Both the position numbers and the translations under genes were made by a program. From assembly GCA_026004935.1 (NCBI GenBank), contig BPKC01000001.1:806001-870000 (forward strand): a DNA stretch of 64,000 bases, given 5' to 3'. Shown here piece after piece: positions 23,219 through 31,126 of the stretch; positions within the stretch are counted from its first letter, which is position 1; every line of letters starts with the position of its first letter. Under the pieces are notes generated by a model. That model was not told the DNA's origin, made no database searches, and was given only the letters and a program-made list of their open reading frames with translations. This stretch comes from Rhodothalassiaceae bacterium (GTDB lineage: Bacteria > Pseudomonadota > Alphaproteobacteria > Sphingomonadales > Rhodothalassiaceae).

Positions 23219-23700
23219 GCCGGACGCTTGCCGACGAGCCGCCGGTCGATGCCGATCCCGGGCTGCTCGCCCGCTTCCTCGACATCTTCAAGAGTCCGGC
23301 CTTCGATCTCGTGGGCGGCGAGGTGCTCGCGCTCGACGGGCGGCACGGCCGCGCGCGCCTGCGCTTCCTGCCCGGCGAGCATCTGCTCAACCCGCTCGGC
23401 ACCGTCCAGGGCGGGATGCTGACGGTGATGCTGGATTCGACCGCGGCCATTGCGGCGATTGCGAAAAGCGGGGTCACCGTCTTCCTGCCCACCCTCGAGA
23501 TCAAGACGAGCTTCATCGCCCCGGCCCGGCCGCGTCCGCTCATCGGCATCGGCCAGTGCATCCATCTCGGCCGCTCCGTCGCCTTCGTGGAAGGGGCGCT
23601 CTATGACGAGGCGGGCGGGCACCTCGTCGCCCGGGCATCCGCCACCGCGCGGCCCATTCTCATGGCCCGGGCCATGGCCGGAGGGGGCGTCAAAAGCTGA
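23215..23700 (+). CDS. PaaI-family hotdog thioesterase
   Basis: 161 aa from a GTG at 23215 that overlaps the coxM-like stop (GTGA). The hotdog core has NPLGTVQGGMLTVMLDSTAA, where HGG of the family appears as QGG and the catalytic Asp/Glu position is occupied by Asp. TLEIKTSFIAPARPRPLIG and the GRSVAFVEGALYDEAG strand follow. The family hydrolyses acyl-CoA thioesters. Coupling to the molybdenum hydroxylase subunits suggests aromatic or xenobiotic acid metabolism, an inference only. Its end overlaps the convergent lpxR-like gene by 11 bp. Confidence 0.85.
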   Translation: MSRTLADEPPVDADPGLLARFLDIFKSPAFDLVGGEVLALDGRHGRARLRFLPGEHLLNPLGTVQGGMLTVMLDSTAAIAAIAKSGVTVFLPTLEIKTSFIAPARPRPLIGIGQCIHLGRSVAFVEGALYDEAGGHLVARASATARPILMARAMAGGGVKS

Positions 23701-24760
23701 TGCTGAGGCCGGCGTGGCCGAAGGCCTGGCCTTCGCTCTGGCCGCGGAACTCCTTGCCGCGCAGGGTGTAGCCGTAGGTGAGCGCGACGTGACGCCAGGA
23801 AAGGCGCCCGCCGATGGTGAGCTCGAACAGCGCCCGCTGGACCGGCACCGTCACCGGCGCATCGCGCAGGAAGGGCCCCTGGAGCAGCCGGTTCCAGCCG
23901 ACGAGGCGTCCTCCGAGCCCGGCGAAGACCTCGAAGCTCGCGCGCCGGTCGGCCTCGGGCACGAACGGGCTGCCGACGATCATCGGCCCGATCCGGGCGG
24001 GCAGCCGCCGGCCGATGCGCCAGCCGCCCCGCAGCACCACGCCGGCATCCGCCGCCAGCGACACGGTTCCGATCTCCGCGCCCGCAAACGGGGCGAGCTG
24101 CAGCGCCGCGCCCTCCGGATCGCCGGCCAGCGTCAGATACCGGCTCTGGCGGTAGGCGAGCTGAAGCGCGGGAGAATTGGGCAGCTGATTCGCCCAGCCG
24201 AGCGGGCGCGGCGAATCGACGAGCTCGTGGACGGCGGTCTGCGTCTGGCGCGCGAGCGCGGCCGGCCCCACGACCCCCGCCGAGATCAGCCATTCGTCGC
24301 GGCGGTCGCCGGCAAGCGCCGTGCTGCCGGCCTCCAGATACAGCCAGCCCGCATAAGGCCGGTCCCCGAAGAGGGGCGAGGCCACCTTGATGGTCCGCGG
24401 CGTGTACATGTTCTGGCCGAGCGCGAAGAGATGCCGGTGGGCATGGGGTTCGGCGGCGAGATCCGCGCGGTCAAGGCCGAGGCTCAGACGGAGCAGCGCG
24501 TCGCTCGCCCGGTTCGGCCAGGGTGTCGCCCGATCGCGCGCCCGCCAGGTGACGACGAGCCGCGCGCCGTTCGTGTACCAGCGGTCCTCGCCGTCGCCGT
24601 AGAGGTCATTCTCGCTCTGGAAGGTCACGGTTCCGGCCGGTGCGGGAGCGGGTGCCAGGGTGCAGAGCAGCAGCGCGCATCCGGCAGGAAGAAGCCGCCG
24701 CGCCCGGAGCTTGCGCCCGCCGCGCGCGCGGGAGGCTTCTCGTGGGGGAATTCTGGTCAT
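23690..24760 (-). CDS. LpxR-family (DUF2219) outer-membrane lipid A deacylase-like protein
   Basis: 356 aa from ATG 24760, preceded by GGAGAGCGC. A signal peptide (LLPAGCALLLCTLAPAPAPAG) is followed by TFQSENDLYGDGEDRWYTNG, the LpxR/DUF2219 signature with the Asn and Asp that bind metal. A beta-barrel ends in a C-terminal Phe (GHAGLSISF), fitting BAM-dependent insertion. LpxR removes the 3'-acyloxyacyl group of lipid A. Its 5' side faces the PBP-like gene across a 345-bp divergent region with an AT-rich island. Confidence 0.85.
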   Translation of the reverse strand: MTRIPPREASRARGGRKLRARRLLPAGCALLLCTLAPAPAPAGTVTFQSENDLYGDGEDRWYTNGARLVVTWRARDRATPWPNRASDALLRLSLGLDRADLAAEPHAHRHLFALGQNMYTPRTIKVASPLFGDRPYAGWLYLEAGSTALAGDRRDEWLISAGVVGPAALARQTQTAVHELVDSPRPLGWANQLPNSPALQLAYRQSRYLTLAGDPEGAALQLAPFAGAEIGTVSLAADAGVVLRGGWRIGRRLPARIGPMIVGSPFVPEADRRASFEVFAGLGGRLVGWNRLLQGPFLRDAPVTVPVQRALFELTIGGRLSWRHVALTYGYTLRGKEFRGQSEGQAFGHAGLSISF

Positions 24761-25105
24761 GCGCTCTCCGTCACGGGTTGGCGATGCGGCACGGTCGCGA
24801 TGCCGCATGCTCCAATCGCGGGAAGATGTCCATTTTGCGGCCGCTTGACGAAGGCCGGGGGCCTGCGGCGCCGGGCGGCTGCTTCCGCAACGTTCCGGCG
24901 AGGCAACATATTACTGATCAACCGAGTGAGTTTTAAGCATTTTTAAATAAATTTTTTCACATTTTTTCCGCGGCAAGGGTGCAGGGGGCGGCGAATCGCC
25001 GGCAGTTGAGCCGGCAGTCCCGCCTGGCGCGGAAGGCGGCCGGGCAATCACCGCGAGAATGTCGCGCCGTCCCGAGGCACGAGAGGCGCAAGGGAGGGAA
25101 CGTCC
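24761..25105. other. divergent intergenic region with an AT-rich island
   Basis: 345 bp between the lpxR-like gene (minus) and the PBP-like gene (plus). Bases about 24904-24972 are strongly AT-rich, including TTTTTAAATAAATTTTTTC. They must contain or lie close to both promoters, yet I see no clear -35/-10 pair. GAGAGGCGCAAGGGAGG lies before the PBP-like start. Confidence 0.55.
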
Positions 25106-25975
25106 ATGAGCCTTCATGAGGAGGGGCGATCGGAGGATGCCGCCGGCAGCCGAGGGGGCTGCGCAAGGGTGGCCCCGCTCGTCGCGCTGACGGTGACGCT
25201 GCTTGCGGGCCTGATCGCGGCCGATGCGTCGGCAGACGGTGACGGCCTGGCATCCGCCTCCGCGGCGGTGGCCACCCCCTTCGGCGCCCTGCCGTCTTCC
25301 CTGATGGCCGGCGCCCGCCCGCCCGCCGGGCCGGCCTCCGGGAGCTTGTCGGCGGTGGCGGTGGAGCGGGGGGAGGTCAGACAGCTTGCGGCCTGCCGGT
25401 CGCTGTTCTTCGTCGTCACGCACGAGGCGGGCTACGCGCCGCCCGAGGACGGGCAGGCCCTGCGCGCGCTGCTGCGCGGCTTCTATCTCGGGCTCGAGCC
25501 GGAATGGCCCGACGGGCTGCGCGCCTATCCGCTGGCGCGTCCGGCCGACCATCCGGCGAGCCGCATGATCGAAAGGGAGGTGATCGCTGCCGCGCCGGCG
25601 GAAATCGCCCATCACTGGCAGGTGATGGCGCAGCGCTTCGGCCAGACTCCGCCGCCGGTGGTCGAAAGCCCGCGCCTGATTCTCGAGCTCGTGGCGCGGC
25701 GCCCCGGCGTCGTCGCGATCCTCGCCGGCGACGAGCTGCCGCCGCTGGCCCACTGGCCGCGCCAGGTGGTGATCGCGGCCACGCTCGGCGCCCCGGCGGC
25801 CCGCGCGCAATGCCCGCTCGCGCAGCGGCGGCTTGCCTCCGTGCGCCACGAGGGGCCGCAGTCCACCGATGCCACGGGCCTCCTGGCGGCTGCGGGCGGC
25901 CGCGCGAGTTCCGACGGTCGAGACCGGGCGGGCGGGCTTGGGCCATCGTTCGTGCCCGGTTACCGCGTCCCATGA
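25106..25975 (+). CDS. periplasmic binding-protein-like protein (PstS-like half domain)
   Basis: 289 aa. A hydrophobic segment at residues about 23-44 (VAPLVALTVTLLAGLIAADA) is a signal peptide or anchor. Residues about 110-220 align with the shorter protein at 28678-29151: both contain PLARPAD followed by PA, an HW dipeptide, G(Q/E)TPP and a following Leu-rich helix. That segment resembles one lobe of phosphate-type substrate-binding proteins. The C-terminal 50 residues are unlike the paralogue and low in recognisable structure. The stop overlaps the next start as ATGA, so the two proteins are probably made together. Ligand unknown. Confidence 0.65.
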   Translation: MSLHEEGRSEDAAGSRGGCARVAPLVALTVTLLAGLIAADASADGDGLASASAAVATPFGALPSSLMAGARPPAGPASGSLSAVAVERGEVRQLAACRSLFFVVTHEAGYAPPEDGQALRALLRGFYLGLEPEWPDGLRAYPLARPADHPASRMIEREVIAAAPAEIAHHWQVMAQRFGQTPPPVVESPRLILELVARRPGVVAILAGDELPPLAHWPRQVVIAATLGAPAARAQCPLAQRRLASVRHEGPQSTDATGLLAAAGGRASSDGRDRAGGLGPSFVPGYRVP

Positions 25976-27057
25976 GCAGGGCCCGCCGATCGCCGCCGCG
26001 CCCGCTTGCGCGCATCGCGCCGCCCGTGCTCGACGAGGCGCCGGTGCTGGCCGACTGGCGCGGCCGGCTGATCGTCGTCACGCTGCTGTTTCTCGTCGTG
26101 ATCGTCTTTGCCGTCATTCAGGTGGCCGGATCGGCGCATCGCGCCGAGCGCGCGGTGCGCGCGGTCGACGGCGACATCGAGGCCTTCCGCATGCTGTTCG
26201 AGGCGCAGGCGGCGCTGGACGAGCTCAAGCGCGCCGCCTTCGCGCTGGTGCAGACGCGCAGCGAATGGGCGCTGACGGAGACCGAGCGGGCCGAAAGCCG
26301 CTTCCTCGCCCTCGTCGAGCGCCTGCCCGAGGCCGACGAGATCGACCGCAAGGCGCTTGCCTACAATGCGAAGCGCGTGCGCGACCTGCTGGAGGATGTT
26401 ATCGCGCGCTCGGTGTTCGACGGCGCCTCGCGCATGAGCGAGAGCATGCATGCGCTGCGGGTGCTCTTCGAGGAGAGCGGCGAGATTCTGACCACGCTCC
26501 ACGCCAAGCAGGAGCGGGCGACCAGCGCGCGCCTCGCCGCACATGCCCGCGCGCTGGGATCGGCGGTCACCCGCAGCATCCTGCTGCTTGCGCTCACCGC
26601 CGCCTTCCTGATCGCCATGGCGGCGCTCTTCGAGTGGCTGTCCGCCCGGCGCCGGCGATTCCTGGCAAGGAGCGTCGCCGCCATCGCGGAAGGGGCGCGC
26701 GATCTGCGCTTCGGCGCCTACGACATCCGCAGCGATCTGGGGCGCACGCTGTCCCACCTCGAAGAGCTGCAACAGCAGCTCACCGACCTCGAGCTTGCGG
26801 TCTCCTCCTCCCAGCTCGAGATCGGGGACCTGCGCAAGAGGCATGCGGACGAGCGCAGCGGGCTCGAGCGCGAGCTTGCGGCCCTGCGCGAGGAGCTGGA
26901 GAAGACGCGCCTGCGCGAAGAGGCGCTGCGGGATCTGCTCGCCCGCCACGCCCCGGCCGTCGGGCGCGGCGATGCACCCGCACAAGGGGCAACCGATTCG
27001 CCGGGCGGGGCGGTGCATCCGCTGCGCAACCAGTCGCCACGCTCCGCCCGCGCCTGA
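25972..27057 (+). CDS. two-TM HAMP/coiled-coil transducer-like protein without output domain
   Basis: 361 aa from ATG 25972. TM1 (LIVVTLLFLVVIVFAVIQVA, residues about 33-53), a periplasmic helical region of about 150 residues rich in Glu and Ala, then TM2 (ILLLALTAAFLIAMAALFEW). A HAMP-like stretch (AAIAEGARDLRFGAYDI) leads into a long coiled coil with heptads (LEELQQQLTDLELAVSSSQ and ERELAALREELEKTRLREEA). The architecture matches the N-terminal half of chemoreceptors or histidine kinases, but there is no methyl-accepting, kinase, GGDEF or receiver domain before the tail. Coupled by ATGA to the PBP-like gene. Function unknown. Confidence 0.7.
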   Translation: MSRARRSPPRPLARIAPPVLDEAPVLADWRGRLIVVTLLFLVVIVFAVIQVAGSAHRAERAVRAVDGDIEAFRMLFEAQAALDELKRAAFALVQTRSEWALTETERAESRFLALVERLPEADEIDRKALAYNAKRVRDLLEDVIARSVFDGASRMSESMHALRVLFEESGEILTTLHAKQERATSARLAAHARALGSAVTRSILLLALTAAFLIAMAALFEWLSARRRRFLARSVAAIAEGARDLRFGAYDIRSDLGRTLSHLEELQQQLTDLELAVSSSQLEIGDLRKRHADERSGLERELAALREELEKTRLREEALRDLLARHAPAVGRGDAPAQGATDSPGGAVHPLRNQSPRSARA

Positions 27058-27349
27058 CGGCCGGCCGGATGCGGCGCGGACGGGCCGTCAATTTCCACAA
27101 CGGCTTGTTAAAACCTCAAGGCGATTCCGCGCGTCCGCCCAATTTCCAGAAAAACCATCAGTAGCATATTCCAAGCTTGGCAAGTAACGAACTACCAATT
27201 CTTCTAAGGCACCCCTCGTCAAGCCGCGGGCGTTCCCTTTTTAGCTTCCCGTTAACTTTATTCTGCGAGGATCCCTCCCGCTGTTGAGAGGGGCTGCCAT
27301 CCGCCACAAACCAGGAGAGGACGCCGTGATCATCACGAGAGGGACGGAC
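27058..27349. other. intergenic region before the porin operon
   Basis: About 290 bp. It is less GC-rich than its surroundings between about 27070 and 27270, with stretches such as TTTCCAGAAAAACCATCAG and CCCTTTTTAGCTTCCCGTTA. It probably carries the promoter of the porin/PBP-like/MCP operon, but I could not assign -35/-10 boxes, a PHO box or an intrinsic terminator. Confidence 0.5.
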
Positions 27350-28660
27350 ATGGCGCGCCGGCGCACAGCTTCTGCGGGTGCGCTCGCGCTTGCGTTGCTG
27401 GCCGCGGCTGCGGCCGGTACCGCGGCCGCCGCCCAGCAGCCGGCGGGCGACGACGAGGTCGCGCGGCTGCGCAAGGAGGTGGAGGTTCTCAAAGGGCTGG
27501 TCGAGCAGCTCGGGGCCGAGGTCGCGCGGCTCAAGGCCGAGAAGGCGGCCGGCGGCGGCGACGTCTCGGCCCTGCCGCTCGCCGAGCGCATCGACAGGCT
27601 GACGAGCAAGGTCGAGGCGGCCAATGCGCGCCTCGACGAGGTGGAGAATATCGTCATCGAGACCGACGAGAAGGTGGGTTCGCGCGCGATCGCCCATGCC
27701 TTCAACGCCGACAAGCTGGACATCGGCGGCTTCCTTCACACCGCCGCGACCCTGGTCGACGGGCGGGACAATACGGAGGTCGCCGTCAACCGCCTGACCT
27801 TCGAGCTGCTGGGACGCGCGCAGCTGTCGGAGAACTGGTCGGTCTTCGTGGCCCAGGCCTTCATCCGCGAATCGGACATCAACTACACCGATCCCTTCGG
27901 GCGCTTCGACCCGAATTTCAATGTCGTGGTGAAGACGCCGCTCGTCATCGCGACGGCAAGCTACCGTCAAAGCGACCTGCTCGCCATCGATCTCGGCCGC
28001 TTCATCACGCCGCACGGCATCATCAACATCGAGCACTTTCCGGCGATCCTGCTGGATACGGAGCAGCCGCAGTTCCTGCGCCCCTTCGGCGGCCAGACGA
28101 TCTTTGCGAACTTCATGAACGGGGCGCGGATCTCCGGGCAGACCTTCACGGGCTTCGGCGGCAAGGGCACGCTGGGCTACGCCGCCTATGTGGGCAGCTT
28201 CGTCAACAACGCCGACAGCTTCAACTACGGCGGCCGCCTGTTCTACAGCTTCGGCGACAGCGGGGTCACCGCGGGCCTCAATCTCGGCGGCGGCCGGCGC
28301 GCCGGCGAGGGTTCGCAGTACTGGCTGTTCGGCGGCGATCTGCTCATCGACCGCGGCCCCGTGCTGTGGAAGAGCGAGATCTTCGCAACCGACGAGGATC
28401 TGGGCGGCAACCGGCTCGCCTTCTACACCCAGCCCGCCTGGCGCATCGACGACCGCTGGACGGCCTTCTACCGCTTCGACTTCCTGGACGACGGCACCGG
28501 CACGGGCGACCGCATCGAGCATGCGGCGGGCATCACCTTCAAGCCGGATCCGGACATCCATCTCAGACTCATCTTCCACCGCGACCGGTTCCGCGCGGCG
28601 CCCGGATTCCCGAAGGCGAACGCCGAATCCTACCAGTTCGCCGCAACCTTCTCGTTCTAG
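27350..28660 (+). CDS. outer-membrane porin with N-terminal coiled coil
   Basis: 436 aa from ATG 27350, after GAGAGGGACGGAC. A GTG at 27326 with an even better ribosome-binding site (AGGAGAGG) would add eight residues. A signal peptide (LALALLAAAAAGTAAAAQQ) is followed by a coiled coil (DDEVARLRKEVEVLKGLVEQ and ERIDRLTSKVEAANARLDEV), then a beta-barrel of alternating aromatic strands ending FAATFSF with a terminal Phe. The coil-plus-barrel layout resembles DcaP-type trimeric porins. It lies 17 bp upstream of the second PBP-like gene, suggesting delivery of the same ligand into the periplasm. Specificity unknown. Confidence 0.78.
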   Translation: MARRRTASAGALALALLAAAAAGTAAAAQQPAGDDEVARLRKEVEVLKGLVEQLGAEVARLKAEKAAGGGDVSALPLAERIDRLTSKVEAANARLDEVENIVIETDEKVGSRAIAHAFNADKLDIGGFLHTAATLVDGRDNTEVAVNRLTFELLGRAQLSENWSVFVAQAFIRESDINYTDPFGRFDPNFNVVVKTPLVIATASYRQSDLLAIDLGRFITPHGIINIEHFPAILLDTEQPQFLRPFGGQTIFANFMNGARISGQTFTGFGGKGTLGYAAYVGSFVNNADSFNYGGRLFYSFGDSGVTAGLNLGGGRRAGEGSQYWLFGGDLLIDRGPVLWKSEIFATDEDLGGNRLAFYTQPAWRIDDRWTAFYRFDFLDDGTGTGDRIEHAAGITFKPDPDIHLRLIFHRDRFRAAPGFPKANAESYQFAATFSF

Positions 28661-28677
28661 GGCAGGGGAGGGACGCC

Positions 28678-29151
28678 ATGATGAGAGCATGCGCAGGCTT
28701 CCGGTACGCGGCGGCGCTGCTGCTGGCCGGAGTGATGCTTGCCGCCGGCGGGAGCCCGGCGGCGGCCGCCGAATACGCGGTGATCGTGAACGCCGCCAAT
28801 CCCGATGCGGGCAAGGGCGAGGCGCTGCGCGAGGTCGTCAAGCGGCTCTTTCTGAAGGAGCAGACGACCTGGCCGTCGGGCACGCCCGCCCAGCCGCTCG
28901 CGCGGCCGGCGGATTCGCCCGCCCAGAAGGCCTTCGTGGCCAAGGTGCTGGGCATGGATCAGGCCGCGCTCGACCAGCACTGGCTCAGACTGAAGCAGAC
29001 GAAGGGCGAAACCCCGCCGCGCGAGGTGGGCTCGGCGCTGATCCTGACGCGGCTGGTGAGCAAATACGAGGGCGCCTTTTCGGTCGTGAGCGCCGAGGAG
29101 GCCGCCGCTCTGCCGGAGGGTGTGGCGGTGCTGTTCCGCTTCACCGACTGA
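28678..29151 (+). CDS. short periplasmic binding-protein-like protein (PstS-like half domain)
   Basis: 157 aa from ATG 28678, with CAGGGGAGGGACGCC upstream. A signal peptide ends near GGSPAAAAEYAV. The mature protein (VIVNAANPDAGKGEALREVV, then TWPSG, PLARPAD, HWLRLKQTKGETPP and SALILTRLVSKYEGAFSVV) resembles one lobe of phosphate-type substrate-binding proteins. It is about half the length of a bilobal PstS, so it is a truncated or single-lobe form rather than an ABC-transporter component; no permease or ATPase is nearby. It is paralogous to the protein at 25106. Position between porin and MCP suggests a ligand-presenting role. Confidence 0.75.
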   Translation: MMRACAGFRYAAALLLAGVMLAAGGSPAAAAEYAVIVNAANPDAGKGEALREVVKRLFLKEQTTWPSGTPAQPLARPADSPAQKAFVAKVLGMDQAALDQHWLRLKQTKGETPPREVGSALILTRLVSKYEGAFSVVSAEEAAALPEGVAVLFRFTD

Positions 29152-29226
29152 ACGGGTCCCGCATCCCGGTGCGAACGGGGGCGCCGGGATGCGGGAACGG
29201 AAAGGCCGACGAAAGGGCGCACGCCG

Positions 29227-31011
29227 ATGAGGAAGAGGTGGCAGACAATGCTGTCGTGGATCACCGACCGTCTCGCCCGTGCCTCGGTGCGCGCCCGGAT
29301 CTTCGCGCTCGTCGGCGCGCTCGCCGGCGTCGCGCTGCTGGGCTCGCTCGTCGTCGTCGTCCAGAACATGCGCGCGCGCTCGGCCGTGGAGGAGCAGGCC
29401 GCGGAGCTGGCCGCCCTCGAGACGGCGAACGCCGCGGTGCGGGCCTTCGACCGCATGCGCTACTGGTATGCGGATCTCGCGATCTCGCTCGCCGATGACG
29501 CGCTCAAGAACGCCGAAGCCGCCGGTGCCGAATACCGCGAGGGGCTGGCGGGTATCGCGGCGCTGGCGGATGCGGACCGCGCCCGGCTGCTGGCGGATGT
29601 GGAGAAGGTCAAGGCCCTCTCGCTCGAGGCTCTCGACCATTTCGTCATGGAGGAGCAGAAGGAGGGCGCGGCGAAGATGGCCGAGATCCGCGCCATCGTC
29701 GCGGCGGACGACCTGATCCTCGCCGATCTCCTCGAACGCCTGCGCGCGGGTGCGCGCGCCCGCGCCGCCGCCGTCGAGGCGCGCAGCGTCAGCGCAAGCT
29801 GGTCGGCCGCGGTGACCCTCGTCCTGATCCTGCTCGGCGCCGGTGCGATCGCGTTCACCACGGAGCGCACGGTCATCCGCCCGCTCGTCGCCATCACCGG
29901 GGCGACCGAGGAGGTCGCCGCCGGTGCGCTCGATACGCCGGTGCCCTTCACCGATCAGACGAGCGAGCTCGGGGCACTGGCCCGCGCGGTCGAGATCTTC
30001 CGCGAGAACGCGAAACGCATGCGGGACATGCAGGCCGAGCGCGAACGAATGGCGGCCGAACGCGAGGCCGAGCGCGCGCGGTTGGAGGCCGAAAGGCGGG
30101 CCGCGGAAGAGGAGCAGCGCGCGGCGCTGGAGCGGGAATTCGCCCGTCAGCGCGCACTCGCGCAGTCGGTGATCGAGCTTCTGGAAGGCCGCGTCTTCCA
30201 GTCGCTGGACGCCGTGGTCGCGTCGGCCCACGAGCTCGAGACCGCATGGCGCAGCATGGACCATTCGCTCGCCACCTCCCAGAAACGCGCCGCCGAGGTC
30301 TCGAGCGCGTCCGAGATCGCGAGCGAGAACGCGCAGATGGTGGCTTCCGCGGCCGAGCAGCTTGCGGGCTCCGTCAAGGAGATCACGCAGCAGATCACCC
30401 GCTCGTCCGCGATCGCCCGTGAGGCGGTGGCCAAGCAGGAGTCGGTGGCGGCTTCCGCCCAGCGGATGCATCAGCTCACCGGTGAGATCACCAATGTCAT
30501 ATCGGTCATCGACGACATCGCCGACATGACCAATCTGCTGGCGCTCAACGCCACGATCGAGGCGGCGCGCGCCGGCGAGGCCGGGAAGGGATTTGCGGTG
30601 GTGGCGGCCGAGGTGCGCGCGCTCGCCGGGCAGACCCAGCGCGCGACCGAGAGCATCGCCGAGCAGCTCTCGCTCATCCGCGAGGCCAGCGAAGAGACGG
30701 TGCGCGCCGTGGCCGAGATCGGCGACCGGATCCGCGCGATCGACGAGGTCTCCTCCACGGTCGCGGCGGCGGCCGAGGAACAGGAGGCCTCCACCGGCGA
30801 GATCAGCCGCACCATCGCGGATGCGGCCGAGGCGACCCGGGGGATCTCCACCAAGATCGCGGAGGTCGTCCAGGACATCCAGGAAACCGGCGCATCCGCC
30901 CGTCAGGTGGCGGAGGCGGCCGCGCAGCTCAAGACGATCGCCTCGCAGCTGCGCGCGGAGGTCGAGCGGTATCTCGCCGGCCTCGACACCGACCAGCGCG
31001 CCGCCTCCTGA
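29227..31011 (+). CDS. methyl-accepting chemotaxis protein
   Basis: 594 aa. TM1 ([20 protein letters not shown], about residues 25-45), a periplasmic helical domain of about 150 residues, TM2 ([19 protein letters not shown]) and HAMP ([19 protein letters not shown]), then a long charged coiled coil and the signalling domain. The hairpin tip is [20 protein letters not shown] with [16 protein letters not shown], the CheA/CheW contact region. There is no C-terminal CheR/CheB pentapeptide. It lies 75 bp downstream of the PBP-like gene and likely senses ligand through it. No che genes occur in this window. Confidence 0.93.
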
Positions 31012-31126
31012 GACCCGCGCGGCTCCCGTCCGCCGGGCGATTGCCAAGAGGCCCGCAATCCGGCTAGCGTCCCGCCCCGGGACGGCGGGACGGCCGGTCC
31101 CGCACGCGGCTTGCGGGTGGAACGGC

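Follow-up and report, generated by a model that had tools for sequence, protein, structure and literature searches.

A chemoreceptor-like transducer without an output domain and its binding protein-like partner gene, a probable diverged copy of the neighbouring receptor pair

We found that P0001, a transducer gene in a 64,000-nucleotide stretch of DNA from a Rhodothalassiaceae bacterium (the window), encodes what its sequence indicates is a derived, output-less member of a family of membrane sensors. Together with the upstream gene P0002, it is best interpreted as having diverged from a copy of the P0003–P0004 PBP–MCP pair, lying between the lpxR-like and porin genes (Table 1). The account that we favour, with a probability of about 0.4, is that this copy is specific to the lineage and that P0001 would act as an accessory or decoy subunit toward P0004. 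Decay of the duplicate ranks next, and after it signalling through a separate partner, as proposed for GlnX of C. glutamicum.

Table 1. Positions within the window of P0001, its parts and the neighbouring genes
Feature	Position	Strand	Remark
LpxR-like outer-membrane protein	23690..24808	-	Pfam LpxR 256.9 bits; left boundary of the extra pair
P0002, single-lobe PstS-like binding protein, transducer partner	25106..25975	+	Domain at residues ~100–230
P0001, transducer without output domain	25972..27057	+	361-aa ORF
P0001 TM helix 1	26068..26130	+	Residues ~33–53; hydropathy, limits by eye; AF2 helix 23–95
P0001 periplasmic four-helix-bundle sensor	26137..26556	+	Residues ~56–195; AF2 model, structure matches, profile
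P0001 TM helix 2	26575..26640	+	Residues ~202–223; hydropathy, alignment, limits by eye
P0001 degenerate HAMP	26641..26757	+	Residues ~224–262; co-linear with HAMP of MCPs
P0001 cytoplasmic coiled coil	26734..26949	+	Residues ~255–326; AF2 helix 255–326
P0001 disordered tail	26950..27054	+	pLDDT <50 at 328–361; codons 323–361 without codon-position signal
P0005, porin-like, first gene of the conserved porin–PBP–MCP locus	27350..28660	+	Outside the P0002–P0001 pair
P0003, paralogous single-lobe PBP-like protein	28681..29151	+	Weak PBP_like_2 match
P0004, MCP sharing the P0001 sensor type, with HAMP and signalling hairpin	29227..31011	+	Full-length paralogue of P0001

An earlier note on this DNA had assigned P0001 two TM helices and a periplasmic helical domain, and both hydropathy and an AF2 model agreed with this assignment. 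The model, which was run with an alignment of six related MCPs, gave block mean pLDDT values of 77–95 across residues 61–180 of the bundle and predicted the cytoplasmic coiled coil at fair confidence; overall it had a mean pLDDT of 71.9 and a pTM of 0.43, with low confidence at residues 1–27, 243–258 and 328–361. The coiled coil, which had been put at about 100 residues, is present but has a length of about 70 (residues 255–326 by AF2). It is co-linear with the post-HAMP linker coil of MCPs, and a full-length MCP profile aligned to P0001 as far as residue 321. The tail that follows is probably little constrained. The HAMP-like linker that had also been claimed is retained by position, being co-linear with the HAMP of the relatives, but not by profile. 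The hallmarks of a HAMP domain are a conserved proline in AS1 and a glutamate at the start of AS2, both of which we saw as conserved columns in this family. In P0001 the proline is replaced by R227 and the glutamate by D255, with A239, G241 and G257 retained; having lost both hallmarks and having no match to the curated Pfam profile, P0001 falls outside PF00672, and its linker is recognizable only through alignment to relatives. The ATG of P0001 shares an ATGA overlap with the TGA of P0002, as the note had reported. No RBS-like sequence was seen by eye ahead of this ATG and the first 18 codons are without codon signal (GC3–GC2 of 0.06), so that the exact start of P0001, and hence ATGA coupling of the two genes, is plausible but unproven.

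We found no recognizable output domain in P0001. Pfam returned no match at its cut-off and listed neither MCPsignal nor HAMP at E ≤ 1, and a search of Pfam/NCBIfam for an output domain gave sub-threshold matches only, most of them coiled-coil-like. A profile built on the output regions of 11 MCP relatives, which scores P0004, itself one of the 11, at 412 bits, found nothing in P0001 or in the six frames of 25972–27400 (best, −1.0 bits). The MCP hairpin tip motif is absent from P0001, which without a signalling hairpin bearing the conserved tip lies outside PF00015, and codon-position signal is absent over the ~290 bp from 27057 to the porin gene. Pfam, the output profile and the six frames to 27400 thus bore out the claim that the output domain is missing and that no frameshifted remnant of one follows. 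Two candidates for a residual output were rejected: the output profile ruled out an in-frame or frameshifted hairpin remnant past residue 326, and a pairing of the P0001 tail with the hairpin tip that MAFFT produced was unsupported by the profile.

On sequence comparison, the first ~260 residues of P0001 are a divergent homologue of the sensor and HAMP of P0004. A sensor-plus-HAMP profile made from the N-termini of 11 related MCPs, with P0001 excluded, scored P0001 at 40.1 bits across residues 33–257, whereas controls shuffled in 12-residue blocks reached no more than 12.2 bits in 1,000 shuffles and 11.5 bits in 3,000 more. The first ~250 residues aligned in MAFFT with few, short gaps beyond residue 30; identity is low (13–22%). 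This profile match across sensor and TM2/HAMP places P0001 in a PBP-coupled four-helix-bundle sensor family that we define here from P0004 and its relatives, and the pair also shows the gene arrangement of the family, a single-lobe PBP gene upstream of the sensor gene. A profile of the periplasmic part only gave 16.3 bits for the fragment 56–195, with like-for-like shuffles peaking at 9.0 (n = 3,000), and 11.3 bits for the whole protein against a best shuffle of 11.1 (n = 3,000). When residues 41–210 were block shuffled, two of 1,000 shuffles (12.4 and 11.7 bits) beat the whole-protein score of 11.3 and neither beat the fragment score. With the same profile, five true family members scored 75–87 bits and the three other TM-bearing MCPs of the genome scored 4.7 bits or went unreported. 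The bundle alone is a thin but real match, the TM and HAMP parts supplying the remainder of the 40.1-bit score.

Structural comparison of the bundle with VIA-align gave Z values of 15.7 for the sensor of a histidine kinase (4k0d), 13.6 for the LytS sensor (5xsj), 12.7 for NarQ, 12.3 for QseE, 11.6 for Tsr and 11.4 for Tar; a designed bundle (6egc) reached 13.5, and values below ~13 may signal only the common arrangement of helical bundles. Foldseek found zero matches to the P0001 model at E ≤ 0.001, and the sensor profile, run against the sequences of solved structures, found HAMP entries and a few helical ones at chance level. Generic matches of this kind, the low identity to relatives and a whole-protein periplasmic score close to the best shuffles are what one might expect if P0001 were an unrelated four-helix-bundle membrane protein that merely follows a PBP. 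We consider this highly improbable: the sensor-plus-HAMP score lies far above its shuffles and runs through a co-linear TM1–bundle–TM2–HAMP–coil order, the fragment score likewise exceeds all 3,000 of its controls, the other three TM-bearing MCPs barely respond to the periplasmic profile, and P0002 is independently homologous to P0003, the PBP of the MCP.

An output was found in nearly all of the sensor relatives examined. In the order, a search of 396 genomes (E ≤ 1e−25) identified 11 sensor relatives besides P0001, all 11 of which have the MCP hairpin tip. A search of 385 genomes of the class, which scored up to six candidates per genome and may miss further members, added seven more, among the matches listed, that span at least 200 of 259 positions and are not cut by a contig end. 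At class level we found MCPs (G532, G452 and G504) and histidine kinases (G733 by Pfam; G717 and G547 by motif), as well as G518, the cut frame of which ends in receiver-like sequence; the part of G518 examined yielded no kinase motif, and its output is probably a hybrid kinase. Two further contigs, L054 and L064, encode MCPs. A phylum sample of 249 genomes gave matches of at least 200 positions solely from genomes already seen. The sensor query of the order, class and phylum searches contains P0001, whose own rows there arise by construction. Altogether, 20 sensor relatives other than P0001 were examined, of which 16 carry the MCP hairpin, three a histidine kinase and one a probable hybrid kinase. 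As an output is identified in 19 of these 20 and probable in the other, P0001 is a derived truncation; the earlier note had named homologues that all carry an output domain as grounds for refuting its reading, and this is largely what we see. We found no other output-less family member among the relatives examined (matches listed).

Four loci were left out of the 20. G624 gave a near-full-length match in a 395-amino-acid frame running to the contig end, and G808, a shorter match from the phylum sample, covered positions 62–255 only, in a 660-amino-acid frame in which neither the MCP-tip motif nor the kinase motif was found. In the Robiginitomaculum MAG contig L055 (6269–8095), an MCP is seemingly split, its sensor-like part and its hairpin tip lying in different frames. 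The fourth, L019 (3223–6027), belongs to G001, a genome of the same genus, and holds a second porin-like, PBP and sensor locus in which the transducer is cut by the contig end. The 455-amino-acid frame of G092 reaches a contig end yet already contains the hairpin tip. The gene ahead of the sensor encodes a single-lobe PBP in most loci examined and a Tll0287-like protein in G733, G717 and G504. As a separate observation, the sensor bundle (L068, L069, L072 and 29227–31011) had no Pfam sensor-domain match and occurs with MCP or hybrid-kinase outputs.

The partner gene P0002 encodes a probably exported protein with a low-complexity N-terminal linker and C-terminal tail. Within the genome it is 33% identical to P0003 (59 bits), and its AF2 model resembles a portion of phosphate-binding proteins of the PstS type (best E, 1.1e−4); a PBP profile found no match among the sequences of solved structures. 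Codon signal is present in residues 65–240 and weak in residues 241–289. P0002 keeps 13 of the 22 columns that at least 85% of its relatives conserve; those kept in the PBP core include W, R, HW, Q, G and TPP. P0001 keeps 7 of the 30 columns that are conserved in at least 85% of 14 sensor-plus-HAMP relatives, so the binding lobe looks better conserved than the receptor. The residues retained in P0001 are L92, S97, M159, R163, A239, G241 and G257, and those lost include most of the F....YW...LA.SL stretch, G155 and the HAMP proline and glutamate. As a control, each of the 14 relatives when left out kept 80–100% of 18–21 columns, in a somewhat stricter column set. Both genes also have very long terminal branches, with 8.08 changes per column for P0001 (median 0.84) and 5.11 for P0002 (median 0.82). 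We rejected the placement of P0001 and P0002 in these trees as unusable because of the long branches, which drew a long-branch warning; the branch of the other PBP in G001 (L019) is long too, at 4.28.

We also examined whether the genes look maintained. Codons 19–322 of P0001 have a GC3–GC2 of 0.46, which none of 5,000 shuffles attained and which can be compared with 0.41 for P0004 and 0.45 for the porin-like P0005. The signal fades near the end of the MCP homology, and the last 39 codons (323–361) have a GC3–GC2 of 0.08, attained by 1,239 of 5,000 shuffles. The intact frame and codon bias suggest that P0001 is, or until recently was, under protein-level selection, the last 39 codons excepted, and it does not obviously look dead. 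Among the 60 nearest genomes, only the one that carries P0001 gave a match to it; scanning the GTDB r220 species collection by peptide pattern yielded no close homologue, and a plasmid collection gave no relatives at E ≤ 0.01. Across the order, a search with P0001 at E ≤ 0.1, scoring up to five candidates per genome, matched 51 of 396 genomes including its own. Matches in the other 50 were weak, none exceeding 23.4 bits, and many fell on the coiled coil; the one in G094 is an MCP from this sensor family.

These data bear on a second reading, in which the pair is a decaying duplicate, under relaxed selection since the hairpin was lost and with no function or a leftover one. The very long branches of both genes also fit relaxed selection, and the absence of relatives from the 59 other nearest genomes, the GTDB r220 scan and the plasmids (E ≤ 0.01), the loss of most conserved residues in P0001, the signal-free final 39 codons and the presence of an output, identified or probable, in all 20 other family members examined point the same way. 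However, the frames of P0001 and P0002 are both intact, a GC3–GC2 of 0.46 persists across 304 codons despite the large divergence, P0002 keeps the listed residues of the PBP core, and 361 codons without a stop would arise with a probability of ~0.002 at this base composition, a crude estimate; another frame there is also stop-free. On balance we hold decay to be somewhat doubtful, and place it behind an accessory or decoy role.

The surroundings of the pair suggest how it arose. Since P0002 is homologous to P0003, the PBP–transducer gene order is present twice. P0004 matches MCPsignal (97.3 bits) and HAMP (40.4 bits) in Pfam. P0005, which we take to be porin-like, had no Pfam match beyond the cut-off and is 49–72% identical to its counterparts in six relatives. 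Neighbouring porin and PBP genes occur in six of 59 other nearby genomes, and in five of the six (G001, G005, G006, G038 and G045) an MCP of the same sensor type comes next. In three of six family genomes, those with the locus (G001, G005 and G006), lpxR on the minus strand directly adjoins the porin gene on the plus strand, and the P0002–P0001 pair was not found in these three; tblastn of P0001 at E ≤ 10 gave chance-level matches only (best E across the seven stretches searched, 0.63). The simplest reading is that the pair was gained by duplication in this lineage, and repeated loss in the relatives, instead of one gain, could still produce this distribution. A search for a trace of duplication at the DNA level, by blastn of the pair against 28601–31050, gave short matches only, some on the wrong strand, and repeats within 24800–27400 were not telling. 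The link to the MCP 2 kb downstream that the earlier note had raised is therefore meaningful, and stronger than claimed, in that by the PBP and sensor homologies both genes look like diverged copies. The pair resembles the Iodidimonas/Kordiimonas porin–PBP–MCP locus (P0003–P0004 and relatives) in gene order and in its homologous PBP and sensor. By contrast, the PBP–MCP relatives examined there have the hairpin, whereas P0001 lost the hairpin together with HAMP and other conserved residues.

In the account of P0001 as an accessory or decoy receptor, the receptor copy has lost the signalling hairpin that follows the linker coil in MCPs, and a single reading frame still holds the sensor, the membrane helices, the degenerate HAMP and the coiled coil. 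P0002 would bind a small anion-like ligand and dock on the P0001 bundle. Such docking is plausible from the model: the PBP XylFII docks on the four-helix bundle of LytS (PMC9769921), and LytS is the second VIA-align match of the P0001 model. Without a hairpin P0001 presumably could not itself control CheA and so would act in trans, either by dimerizing with P0004 or through competition for the binding proteins, and in this way would alter the sensitivity of the P0003–P0004 receptor. This account is consistent with the homology and co-linearity with P0003–P0004, the lack of an output, the position between lpxR and porin genes, the codon signal to codon ~322, a binding-lobe core that P0002 has largely preserved, and the much faster divergence of both genes. 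In Tsr, mixed chemoreceptor dimers form, a defective subunit can spoil them and dominant lesions spoil heterodimers, as described in PMC4692393. Mixed oligomers of P0001 and P0004 are possible, although the retention of 7 of 30 columns seems to speak against a normal dimer and signal path in P0001, and the loss of most family-conserved residues, two in HAMP included, weakens the mixed-oligomer idea.

The closest functional model for P0002–P0001 is GlnH–GlnX. The cytoplasmic part of GlnX is without domains typical of bacterial sensors, and GlnX is proposed to act together with GlnH, a PBP, and PknG, a kinase (PMC9769921). Compared by layout, both systems have a PBP gene coupled to a four-helix-bundle transducer without a recognized output; the bundles of GlnX are described as Tar/LytS-like (PMC9769921). 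P0001 shares with GlnX the extracytoplasmic bundle, the adjacent PBP gene and the missing output; it differs in not having two bundles and four TM helices or a soluble kinase in the operon. PknG lies in a putative operon with GlnX (PMC9769921), whereas the next gene after P0001 is porin-like and follows after ~290 bp. In a GlnX-like mode of action, loaded P0002 would act on the P0001 bundle and the coiled coil would relay the signal to a distinct soluble protein, such as a kinase or soluble MCP, whose gene lies elsewhere. The shared layout and the coiled coil predicted at fair confidence are in keeping with this, and three of the seven MCPs of the genome (L044, L045 and L047) lack a predicted TM helix, which makes them conceivable partners. 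We nevertheless judge this mode unlikely: a candidate partner was not found in the operon, P0001 has one bundle and two TM helices where GlnX has two and four, most family-conserved residues are gone, and the GlnH–GlnX and GlnX–PknG contacts are themselves a model, presented in PMC9769921 as not yet demonstrated.

Other known systems share single features with P0001. In XylFII–LytS (5xsj/5xsd) a PBP docks on a four-helix-bundle sensor that resembles the P0001 model (Z 13.6), although LytS is a histidine kinase, the identity is 8% and helical-bundle matches are generic. The split receptor Tlp7 of C. jejuni (Cj0952c/Cj0951c) has its other half in the adjacent gene (PMC3461409), whereas no hairpin fragment lies behind P0001. 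AF1503 of Archaeoglobus fulgidus is, like P0001, a membrane protein whose cytoplasmic end is without the usual output domain, in its case a HAMP; unlike P0001, it is also without a typical periplasmic input domain (PMC3585426). Its HAMP is the prototype and that of P0001 is degenerate, and the passages of PMC3585426 cited here mention no PBP pairing for it. A literature search for output-less or truncated chemoreceptors found none under the phrases searched, and other wording may exist.

The interest of P0001 lies mainly in its apparent retention beside its full-length paralogue P0004. If functional, it would be a natural output-less receptor subunit and would permit a direct test of whether bacteria tune chemoreceptors with such subunits; if not, the pair documents the duplication of a PBP–MCP unit and the loss of its output. 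We put forward only tentatively, and with slightly less confidence than the accessory or decoy role itself, the broader proposal that P0001, having given up its hairpin, was kept with its own PBP, either as a dedicated modulator (a decoy or mixed-dimer subunit) of the receptor from which it derives or to signal to a separate cytoplasmic partner, which would make the pair a proteobacterial counterpart of GlnH–GlnX.

Three further observations concern the conserved locus. The lpxR–porin–PBP–MCP block (23690–31011) is inverted in the same-genus genome G001 (L018, 5770–11302) relative to argB, CoxM-like and GST-like genes, names that were given by eye. In G024 (L023, 8058–9211), a gene that by eye is sigma-factor-like stands in place of the MCP behind the porin and PBP genes. 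Finally, PBPs 43–47% identical to P0003 occur on contigs (L057–L060) labelled as Planctomycetota or Kuenenia MAGs, which may reflect either horizontal transfer or mis-binning.
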